DNA of 34,339 bases, taken from assembly GCA_017467105.1 (NCBI GenBank), contig JAFTSU010000019.1:1-34339 (forward strand). Direction: 5' to 3'. The notes under the pieces are model-generated. The model saw only the letters and a list, made by a program, of their open reading frames with translations, ran no database searches and was not told the DNA's origin. Shown in pieces: positions 31,603-34,339 of the stretch. How positions within the stretch are numbered: position 1 is the stretch's first letter; each line of letters starts with the position of its first letter. The stretch is from Clostridia bacterium. Its GTDB lineage: Bacteria > Bacillota > Clostridia > Oscillospirales > CAG-272. The translations under genes were made by a program, and so were the position numbers.

Positions 31603-31631
31603 TTGACAAACTTAAAATCCTCTGCTATAAT
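31603..31631 (+). promoter_or_regulatory. Consensus promoter of tRNA-Cys
   Basis: TTGACA, 17 bp, TATAAT, both perfect, 20 bp before the tRNA. Confidence 0.85.
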
Positions 31632-31651: not shown

Positions 31652-31722
31652 GGCGTCATAGCCAAGTGGTAAGGCAAAGGTCTGCAACACCTCTATCCCC
31701 AGTTCAAATCTGGGTGACGCCT
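31652..31722 (+). tRNA. tRNA-Cys (GCA)
   Basis: The 71-nt cloverleaf has acceptor GGCGTCA/TGACGCC, anticodon loop CTGCAAC in an AAGGT/ACCTC-type stem (anticodon GCA) and T-loop TTCAAAT in a CCCAG/CTGGG stem. Discriminator T and genomic CCA (31723-31725) follow. A hairpin array and accessory genes begin directly after its terminator. Confidence 0.95.
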
Positions 31723-31724
31723 CC

Positions 31725-31761
31725 AAAAAATTAAGCAACCCTTTGGGTTGCTTAATTTTTT
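31725..31761 (+). terminator. Terminator of tRNA-Cys
   Basis: AAAAAATTAAGCAACCC (31725-31741), loop TTT, and its complement (31745-31761) form a 17-bp perfect stem with T-run. The 3-nt loop matches the hairpin style of the array that follows 3 bp later. Confidence 0.85.
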
Positions 31762-31764
31762 ATC

Positions 31765-31975
31765 CAAGCCGACGAAGGAGGCTTGGTATGTAATCAATGC
31801 GCCCCGCGCATTGTATGTAATTGCGACGGAGTCGCGTATGGCATCACGCCGGGGCGTGTATATTTCGTCGGCTTGATAACATACATCCCTTCGGGATGAT
31901 TCCATACAGCCCTTACGGGCTGAGGACATACCGCCTGCAGCGGATTTCATCCATGGCTCCGCCGTGATTTGGATG
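31765..31975 (+). repeat. Hairpin array 1 (GTATG/CATAC type)
   Basis: A 12-bp inverted repeat, CAAGCCGACGAA (31765-31776) and TTCGTCGGCTTG (31864-31875), encloses three hairpins: CAATGCGC-CCC-GCGCATTG, GCGAC-GGA-GTCGC and CACGCC-GG-GGCGTG, separated by GTATG spacers (GTATGTAAT twice). To its right follow CATCCC-TTC-GGGATG, CAGCCC-TTAC-GGGCTG, CCGC-CTGCA-GCGG and ATGGC-TCC-GCCGT, separated by CATAC, the reverse complement of the left spacer; the last hairpin lies inside CATCC/GGATG. The stems all differ, so this is not a sequence repeat but a structural one. It ends 11 bp before the ribosome site of the four-helix-bundle gene, so it would be that gene's leader if transcribed from tRNA-Cys. Confidence 0.85.
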
Positions 31976-31998
31976 CGGGGACGCGAAAGGAGAACGAA

Positions 31999-32352
31999 AT
32001 GGCAAAAAATTTATTGCTCGAGTATTCTGAAGAACTTGCCACAAAGTGCGAACTGCTTTGCAAATCTATCAGCGGTAATTCTAACACCGTTTTTCAGCTT
32101 CGCAAATCCTCGTCAAGCGTGTTCGCAAATATCACCGAGGCGCAGTATCCTCAAAGCCTTGCGGATATGCTCTCCAAATTCAAGATTGCAAGAAAAGAGT
32201 GCGCGGAAACAGAAAGCTGGCTCAAATTGCTTTGTAATACAAAGGTGATTGACGAAGCGACCTTCAAAACCTACCGTAACCTCTGCGGCAGAATACAGAG
32301 AATGCTCACCTCGTCGTGTATCACGATTGAAAAGAAAATTGATAACAAATAA
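31999..32352 (+). CDS. Four-helix-bundle protein (S23/IVS type, Avd-like)
   Basis: This 117-residue protein starts at ATG 31999 with AAAGGAG 6 bp upstream; an in-frame start at 31969 lies inside the last array hairpin. The helical layout and the motif SSSSVFANITEAQYPQSLAD, then KFKIARKECAETESWLKLL, match the S23/IVS four-helix-bundle family (consensus SSVGANIxEAQYAxS, KECxETxYWLxLL). A Phe replaces the usual Gly of SSVGANI. Relatives are encoded in intervening sequences of 23S rRNA genes, and the DGR accessory protein Avd has the same fold and binds RNA and reverse transcriptase. No reverse transcriptase is in this window. The position directly after a structured hairpin array suggests that the array RNA is its ligand, which is inference. 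Confidence 0.85.
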   Translation: MAKNLLLEYSEELATKCELLCKSISGNSNTVFQLRKSSSSVFANITEAQYPQSLADMLSKFKIARKECAETESWLKLLCNTKVIDEATFKTYRNLCGRIQRMLTSSCITIEKKIDNK

Positions 32353-32378
32353 TTTTCAAATATTTATCCGGACTTATG

Positions 32379-33559: not shown

Positions 33560-33610
33560 TAACGGGCAATTCTTTGTTTTTCATTAGCATCTTTTTTGTC
33601 AACGCACCTC

Positions 33611-33648
33611 AAAACAAAAAGCACTTCATAAGAAGTGCTTTTTGTTTT
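33611..33648. terminator. Strong terminator after the hydrolase gene
   Basis: AAAACAAAAAGCACTTC (33611-33627), loop ATAA, and its complement (33632-33648) form a 17-bp stem with T-runs. The stretch between the hydrolase stop (33559) and the next start (33882) holds this terminator, hairpin array 2 and a promoter. Confidence 0.85.
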
Positions 33649-33653
33649 GGAAC

Positions 33654-33826
33654 GATGTGTTCCGCCCCGGCGGAACGTGATGCGCACTGCGTGCGTGATG
33701 TTGCCTTTGGCAGTGATGTGCGCTTCGCGCGTGAGTATGCGGAACACATCACATCACTTTGCACCGCAGGCGCAATACATCACTATGGCAAAGCCATAAC
33801 ATCACTTCGGCGTAGCCGATACATCA
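33654..33826. repeat. Hairpin array 2 (GTGATG/CATCAC type)
   Basis: The 12-bp inverted repeat GATGTGTTCCGC (33654-33665) and GCGGAACACATC (33739-33750) encloses GTTCCGCC-CC-GGCGGAAC, CGCAC-TGC-GTGCG, TGCC-TTT-GGCA and GCGC-TTC-GCGC, spaced by GTGATG(T). To the right lie TTGC-ACCGCAGGC-GCAA (an imperfect stem with an A-C mismatch around loop GCA), TATGGC-AAA-GCCATA and TCGGC-GTA-GCCGA, spaced by ACATCAC, the reverse complement of the left spacer. Six of seven loops are three or fewer nucleotides. The layout repeats array 1 with a different spacer word. It follows a terminator and precedes the promoter of the next gene. Confidence 0.85.
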
Positions 33827-33829
33827 CTC

Positions 33830-33858
33830 TTTACAAACAGCCCAAAATGTGATATAAT
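33830..33858 (+). promoter_or_regulatory. Promoter of the gene at 33882
   Basis: TTTACA, 17 bp, TATAAT, 23 bp before the ATG, with its -35 box only 4 bp after the last hairpin-array spacer. Confidence 0.6.
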
Positions 33859-33881: not shown

Positions 33882-34339
33882 ATGCTCATAAAAAAACAAG
33901 ATTGTACAATGGACATCGATATTAAGAAAACAAAAGAGTATTATCAAACACATTCACTTTGTGATTGTCCCTGCTGTCGAAATTATTATGCTCAAGTAAA
34001 ACAACGGTTTCAATTAGTGGATGAGTTTTTGTCTGATTTTGGGGTTTCTATCGAGTGCCCCGATGAGCTTGGAAGTGTAGAATTGCAAGACGAAATTCAA
34101 TACATTTTCGCTTCGTATACCGTGTGTGGAAAAATCTTGGAACTTGATAAATATGAAATTGATATAAATGATGGCGGGTTGTTTTTGAACATTGTCATTG
34201 GTGATTACTATATTCCGAACGAACAGAAAACGGATTATTTTGTTGTAACGATTTACAATATAAATTTGCCTTGGGTGTTAAATGAGCCCTTTCCTACATC
34301 TGTTCCTTACAAAAATAGCTTTTTTAATAAAATCAAGTC
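33882..34339 (+). CDS. Hypothetical protein with CxCxxC motif, cut off by the window end
   Basis: The frame is open from ATG 33882 (ribosome site GGTGGAG, 2-8 bp upstream region) to the last base, so at least 152 residues. Near the N-terminus it has YYQTHSLCDCPCCRNYYAQV, a cysteine cluster C27, C29, C31, C32 that could bind zinc, followed by an acidic, Phe-rich and Tyr-rich alpha/beta region (VSIECPDELGSVELQDEI, YIFASYTVCGKILELDKY). I do not recognise a named family; small acidic proteins of this composition are often immunity proteins, but nothing here proves that. It is AT-rich, like the other genes of this end. Confidence 0.7.
   Translation, partial: MLIKKQDCTMDIDIKKTKEYYQTHSLCDCPCCRNYYAQVKQRFQLVDEFLSDFGVSIECPDELGSVELQDEIQYIFASYTVCGKILELDKYEIDINDGGLFLNIVIGDYYIPNEQKTDYFVVTIYNINLPWVLNEPFPTSVPYKNSFFNKIK

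Follow-up and report, generated by a model that had tools for sequence, protein, structure and literature searches.

A terminator-shaped hairpin, an array of short hairpins and a gene of the S23/IVS protein family follow one another behind a tRNA-Cys gene in the 34,339-nt stretch of DNA that was analysed (the window), and these parts probably (about 0.58) make up a small, selfish-looking element of the S23/IVS kind, mobile or recently mobile, that is adapted to tRNA genes and whose protein reads a word of its own. The distinctive trait of the feature is not the hairpins alone; the hairpins are split by a fixed 8-nt word, which turns up in inverted form in the array's second half.

Structure of the unit in the window

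The window belongs to an assembly of 1.68 Mb that is 56.6% complete; all features given here lie on the forward strand. The tRNA-Cys (GCA) gene (31652..31725; ARAGORN and Rfam) is preceded by a promoter-like site TTGACA-17-TATAAT at 31603..31631 (12/12 consensus positions), the only strong promoter-like site ahead of the S23 gene. The left end of the unit is a terminator-shaped hairpin with an A-run and a T-run (31725..31761), a perfect 17-bp inverted repeat that was missed by a simple terminator scan because the T-run sits within the stem. By direct reading, the first array hairpin, CCAAGCC/GGCTTGG (31764..31786), starts 2 bp past it; the 5' arm and the loop of this hairpin have a second pairing partner at 31864-31875, and the resulting 12-bp long-range helix (5' arm 31765..31776, 3' arm 31864..31875, exact inverted repeats) closes the first half of the array.

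Words and hairpins of the first half were read directly at 31787..31844; the words are conserved and the stems change. The word TATGTAAT occurs at 31787-31794 and again at 31814-31821, and the word TATGGCAT at 31837-31844; hairpins stand between them at 31795-31813 and 31823-31835, and the last hairpin of this half is CACGC/GCGTG (31845..31858). The second half (31876..31966; direct reading and covariation) contains the inverse words ATAACATA (31876), ATTCCATA (31899), AGGACATA (31923) and ATTTCATC (31944), ending in CATA or CATC, and the hairpins 31884-31898, 31907-31922, 31931-31943 and 31952-31966. Overall, words of the TATGTAAT type come first and inverse words of the ATTACATA type second; seven more short hairpins follow the first one, and the array ends at 31966. 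A ribosome binding site AAGGAG (31987..31992; direct reading) and the S23/IVS-family gene (31999..32352, ATG at 31999, 117 aa) come next. No promoter-like site was found between array and ATG in the window class; one weak promoter-like site lies inside the window array.

The array was more stable than 200/200 shuffles (folding z -3.67) and is the sole run of at least four such hairpins in the window; no such run was found in 10 Markov-shuffled windows. The Rfam search of the window at gathering score gave tRNAs only. A second inverted-word array (33610-33830; GTGATG/CATCAC words; folding z -4.54) stands after another terminator-shaped hairpin and is followed by a TTTACA..TATAAT-like promoter and a non-S23 ORF at 33882.

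The S23 protein

The protein of the window was matched by TIGR02436 (E 4.5e-19, 68.7 bits; cut-off 24) and by PF05635 (E 2.3e-18, 66.8 bits; cut-off 33.8), both over the curated cut-offs, and is a member of the S23/IVS-protein family; together with ARAGORN, Rfam and the folding result, these matches bear out the row of tRNA-Cys, hairpin array and S23-type gene described in the original prediction. Relatives of S23 are pentamers; the sole sequence match among solved structures was 2rld (E 1.8e-11), a homologue with five chains. The gene is under strong purifying selection (dN/dS 0.01-0.03 in the 6 computable pairs; 3 more pairs were saturated), and assemblies of Clostridia and Oscillospiraceae from gut and rumen supplied its close homologues.

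Conserved words and covarying stems

In 12 aligned relatives the words were largely invariant and the stems varied. Pair changes on both sides were counted in 53 cells, against 18.5 ± 3.1 in shuffles (0/500 shuffles reached the observed count), and the signal was lost when the pairing partner was slid; the count of further pair types was not above shuffles (175/500). The covariance analysis that had been proposed along with the original prediction thus gave covarying stems and fixed words. Among 789 hairpins in 143 upstream regions, 372 distinct stems were found; the gaps of 4-14 nt between neighbouring hairpins (n = 334) were 8 nt in 184 and 7 nt in 57 cases. The 5' arm of the first hairpin matched the central segment of its own array in 32/42 arrays, against 31/840 for foreign arms.

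The comparison of words with proteins used a set of 34 S23 proteins (identity below 80%). Similarity of the words followed protein identity (Mantel r 0.47; highest of 5000 permutations 0.21); five word letters were shared by 0/328 pairs below 50% identity and by 36% of the 50 pairs at 70-80% identity. This correlation is also expected from joint inheritance of unit and protein; specific reading of the word by S23, which it would fit too, would be the stronger claim.

Arrays upstream of S23 genes

Arrays were sought at 76 S23 loci of relatives and at 67 GTDB loci, two sets that share some genomes; the score counted exact 6-mers that occur two or more times and thereafter two or more times in inverted form within 450 bp upstream, and loci with less than 200 bp upstream (2/23 window-like, 4/53 canonical, 4/67 GTDB) were omitted. 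Array score of at least 5: 13/21 window-like, 32/49 canonical (relatives) and 32/63 GTDB loci; background ORFs of the window genome, 3/464; shuffles, 0/700. Array score of at least 4: 18/21 window-like, 33/49 canonical and 47/63 GTDB loci; background ORFs, 13/464; shuffles, 6/700. The window array itself scores just 4, the level also reached by those 13/464 background ORFs, because its words vary and the measure takes exact words. The test of S23 upstream regions that was suggested at the outset therefore came out in favour of the association, arrays preceding S23 genes far above background. It had also been said that S23 genes lacking an array, or arrays with no preference for S23, would speak against the link: the preference is there, and 16/49 canonical S23 genes score below 4, which counts against a mobile element too, and some arrays stand ahead of genes other than S23. 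In the window assembly four S23 matches exceeded the family cut-off, one with in-frame stops, and 4/4 stand behind arrays; three of them have TATATCAT/ATGATATA words, and two of these three lie behind tRNA-Leu or its 3' half.

Seen from the array, the link is one-sided. Arrays of the TATATCAT type were present in 11/35 genomes and those of the TATGTAAT type in 5/35 (reversed control pattern, 0/35). By hand count, 6/44 clusters of the TATATCAT type lie within 500 bp of an S23 match, one of these matches being a fragment; the other 38/44 have no S23 nearby, several being at contig ends. S23 is present at four of the five TATGTAAT-type places; the remaining one is locus L195, discussed below. In genome G005 (95% complete) five TATATCAT-type arrays were found and no S23 of the matching class was seen. 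Genomes G016 and G001 carry long arrays in one direction only. The TATATCAT class has a TTGATT-17-TATAAT-like promoter (by eye) between array and ORF, and the array is therefore absent from that S23 mRNA.

Further arrays were noted in passing. Loci L199, L202, L203, L204 and L207 have long one-direction hairpin arrays with ATGATATA-type words, free of terminator and S23; array-only copies in L004 (2668-2780), L043, L165, L192 and L218 share a common tail, T-arm-like GTTCGAATCC plus AAAATATCTTTTT; and two unannotated 'Bacteriophage sp.' records from human faeces (L263, L264) contain an S23 gene and inverted-word arrays.

tRNA genes and the borders of the unit

Among the GTDB S23 loci whose upstream sequence covers 500 bp, 52/61 have a tRNA gene on the same strand within that distance upstream; 13 tRNA kinds are represented, Cys (15) and Glu (13) being the commonest. 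An upstream tRNA on the opposite strand was found at 1/61 of these loci, and a downstream tRNA at 0/60 (same strand) and 1/60 (opposite strand). Background ORFs had a same-strand tRNA within 500 bp upstream in 1/419 cases. In the relatives, an upstream tRNA was present at 10/17 window-like and 16/46 canonical loci. The tie to tRNA is a main feature and not a chance neighbourhood. Phylum-wide S23 loci had an upstream tRNA in 0/29 cases, and tRNA targeting is therefore a trait of this variant and not of S23 generally.

Left border: copies behind tRNA-Val (L081) and tRNA-Cys (L079, L086) are identical from the CCA onward, terminator included; their tRNA parts differ, unlike the shared unit. Locus L083 agrees nearly exactly with L080 and L084 from the CCA on. 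To judge from these copies, the unit starts at the tRNA CCA, and the terminator hairpin belongs to it and travels between tRNA genes.

Right border: similarity to the window stopped 0-15 bp past the S23 stop codon in 8/13 comparisons, which places the border zone of the window unit at 32353..32368, and ran 73-116 bp beyond the stop codon in 5/13. Another array stands directly behind the S23 terminator in L138, and L090 has the same terminator at both ends.

Sites with and without an array: throughout the order a conserved tRNA cluster ends in Gly-Cys, and 11 such loci were read. A unit of the window kind is present at 2/11 (G003, G019) and arrays with other words at 3/11 (G008, G009, G049); 5/11 are free of an array by eye (G024, G043, G044, G047, G048), and G020 is unclear. 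The comparison of tRNA-Cys loci in relatives, which had been recommended for finding the borders, thus yielded array-free sites. An empty site with the right flank of the window copy was sought via the neighbouring hydrolase, for which no close homologue was found (3/35 genomes gave weak matches or the query itself), and no target-site duplication was found.

Loss of the gene: in L195 a class-2 array behind a tRNA-like end is followed by 89 nt, and the S23 ORF is absent; in L118 and L104 their counterpart is the final 23 nt of the S23 ORF together with the flank behind it. By this match L195 is a copy that lost its S23 ORF.

Two S23 units, in L003 (about 1140-1190) and L048, stand behind the 3' half of a tRNA only, as if this half had moved along. 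The idea that sites without a tRNA generally contain a tRNA 3' fragment was dropped, such a fragment having been found at just 2/50 loci that lack a full tRNA.

S23 genes in other bacteria

S23 was found in 42/249 phylum-wide genomes, and 29 loci were read; tandem 7-nt words often precede the ORF and inverted words follow it. The score for flanking inverted repeats was at least 28 at 19/29 phylum loci, at 8/12 plasmid loci (12 read of 37 records found) and at 8/69 loci of relatives; background ORFs, 2/461; other ORFs of the phylum loci, 3/102. The plasmid loci come from Cyanobacteriota, Bacteroidota, Spirochaetota, Chloroflexota and Bacillota; the Bacillota locus and one cyanobacterial locus were not above shuffles. 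Other Bacillota, and four phyla besides, have S23 genes with inverted 7-nt words. Of the phylum loci, three are within 23S rRNA (L230, L236, L237) and two within RNase P RNA. In the latter two (L242 and L245, about 1247-2021) the S23 ORF with inverted 7-nt words lies within the RNase P RNA gene; no paper on S23 at such a place was found in the accessible literature. Six plasmid S23 genes (L255, L257, L258, L259, L260, L262) were seen between or beside defence genes: cas2 and cas1; hsdS and hsdR; drmD and MmeI; DUF1156 and a Swt1 HEPN protein.

S23/IVS elements were described more than 25 years ago and are regarded as selfish, with function and movement unclear; in the Coxiella IVS, heptameric repeats (GACAGAT, as printed) stand ahead of the ORF (PMC4990558, accessible text). 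The same text gives the IVS of 23S rRNA three features in common with the window unit, namely the protein family, short repeats before the ORF, and insertion in or next to stable RNA genes; it also places them inside 23S rRNA, with terminal inverted repeats around the ORF and a cut by RNase III, whereas the window unit lies behind a tRNA. In the window, where Rfam shows tRNAs only, no insertion in 23S rRNA was found, and unlike in the IVS both inverted halves are upstream of the ORF, with hairpins between the words. Terminal inverted repeats around the ORF (flanking score of at least 28) were seen at 0/59 GTDB loci of the window's S23, against the 19/29 phylum loci. We read the window variant as the same design, in which the hairpins would fold the words into a tandem row.

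The cyanobacterial STRR repeats likewise consist of tandem 7-nt words that are intergenic and often ahead of start codons. Unlike the window array, neither these nor the heptamer repeats of Beggiatoaceae have hairpins between the words. TAATTCG words were found on both sides of S23 genes in Nostoc and Dolichospermum plasmids, and a few plasmid loci of this kind suggest that STRR repeats may be ends of S23 elements; their placement at S23 is possibly due to chance, since such repeats are common in those genomes. The TAACTGA repeats of Beggiatoaceae have the same tandem, intergenic arrangement, often ahead of start codons, in the accessible text of PMC4679880, which makes no mention of S23.

Alternative explanations and known systems

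One alternative would do without mobility: the array would act as a structured 5' UTR, by means of which either S23 itself or a signal linked to the tRNA regulates S23 translation or read-through at the tRNA terminator; the switch would be the alternative pairing open to the first arm. The window agrees with it, having its ribosome site directly after the array and no promoter-like site between array and ATG, and so does the conservation of the alternative pairing (32/42 against 31/840). A regulatory leader is nevertheless unlikely in view of the promoter between array and ORF in the TATATCAT class (by eye), of the numerous array-only copies, and of sharply bordered units behind different tRNAs. 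The leader RNA of the original prediction accordingly fits the window class and fails for the TATATCAT class, which has a promoter of its own. The second form of that prediction, a small RNA-protein element lacking a reverse transcriptase, held in so far as the array makes up one unit with the S23 gene and the 56.6% complete genome gave no reverse transcriptase match; recognition at the level of DNA would be as admissible for S23 as RNA-protein binding.

REP sequences are dispersed palindromes served by RAYT, a Y1 HUH transposase. The window arrays share with REP/REPIN and RAYT the dispersed palindromes in inverted arrangement, a minority of which stand beside a single protein gene; S23, as distinct from RAYT, is a small protein of four helices for which no catalytic activity is known, and unlike in REP the window-type stems vary freely, with a word between the hairpins. 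If the arrays were REP/BIME-like repeats that owe their movement or expansion to some host or foreign factor, S23 would be one frequent passenger that does not act on the words; this would account for the 6/44 TATATCAT arrays near S23 (hand count), for the long one-direction arrays in G016 and G001 and for non-S23 genes behind arrays. Such an origin is rather improbable, given that S23 stands behind arrays far more often than other ORFs do and that word and S23 sequence co-vary. The enzyme is scarce as well: a Y1 HUH transposase (PF01797) was not matched in the window assembly (56.6% complete) and was present in 4/22 same-genus genomes, and a reverse transcriptase (PF00078), as in diversity-generating retroelements, was not matched in that assembly and was present in 2/22. 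Movement of the retro or REP type by a resident enzyme is therefore little supported, the assemblies being incomplete, and a link to either enzyme was set aside. Avd, which by family naming has a related four-helix fold, works with structured RNA in diversity-generating retroelements; unlike in Avd systems, the window genome gave no reverse transcriptase match and the window protein no bAvd match at E 1 (a weak one, E 0.051, came from the 23S-type S23 of L230).

The 3' ends of tRNA genes are classic attachment sites, and ordinary integration by a tyrosine integrase, with array and S23 carried along as cargo, would explain the tRNA targeting; the units of L003 and L048 behind tRNA 3' fragments would be in keeping with it. 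The compared units of ~0.6-0.7 kb are too small for a gene of integrase size, and S23 units of other taxa lie in operons, 23S rRNA and RNase P RNA, which makes integrase cargo very improbable. Group IIC introns insert behind terminators; no group II match over the gathering score was found in the window (Rfam). A type III-like toxin-antitoxin pair, with the array as antitoxin RNA, would have an RNA-like repeat module that immediately precedes a small gene, as seen here. Type III systems have the order repeats, terminator, toxin gene; in the window the terminator-shaped hairpin is ahead of the array and not, as in ToxIN, between repeats and gene, and S23 had no toxin-family match in Pfam or NCBIfam, so that hardly any weight is given to such a pair.

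Proposed mode of action

In the tRNA-adapted S23/IVS element that we favour, the unit would comprise the terminator hairpin, the hairpin array and the S23 gene, from the CCA of the tRNA 3' end to, usually, just past the S23 stop codon. The 8-nt words are the predicted recognition sequence; the hairpins, having no fixed sequence, would fold DNA or RNA away so that the words adjoin, and words side by side would resemble the 7-nt words that stand in tandem around S23 in other bacteria. Whether on RNA or on single-stranded DNA, S23 would bind its own word and have a part in the spread or maintenance of the unit; array-only copies could be served in trans by S23, as REP sequences are by the RAYT protein. 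A position behind the tRNA terminator would do little harm to the host, and in the window class S23 would be transcribed through read-through from the tRNA promoter. Against a mobile element stand the majority of TATATCAT arrays that lack S23, the non-S23 genes after arrays, the lack of a target-site duplication, and the difference between upstream-only arrays and the flanking repeats of other S23 genes.

A wider reading is offered tentatively, the odds being somewhat against it: S23 proteins could be the word readers of a broad class of minimal elements, in which each lineage has its own 7-8-nt word in inverted arrays (tandem in some phyla, hairpin-spaced in gut Clostridia). Such elements would settle within or after stable RNA genes (23S rRNA, RNase P RNA, tRNA) as well as between the genes of operons, S23 would be their only protein for spread, array-only copies would be served in trans, and some cyanobacterial heptamer repeats would be element ends.

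S23, IVS elements and the heptameric repeats of one IVS are already in print (PMC4990558, accessible text). In the open literature, subscription papers and preprints being mostly outside its scope, no paper was found that ties S23 genes to hairpin arrays, tRNA genes or general repeat words; within that scope the tRNA-linked hairpin-array variant appears to be new, and a general link between S23 proteins and words may amount to more than a variant. With a fixed co-varying word, covarying hairpins, sharp borders and array-free sites, binding and mobility are directly testable. The units recur behind many tRNA genes in gut Clostridia and give a hint at the target of the S23 family; if S23 alone should suffice for spread, this would be a mobile system that needs no known transposase, integrase or reverse transcriptase.
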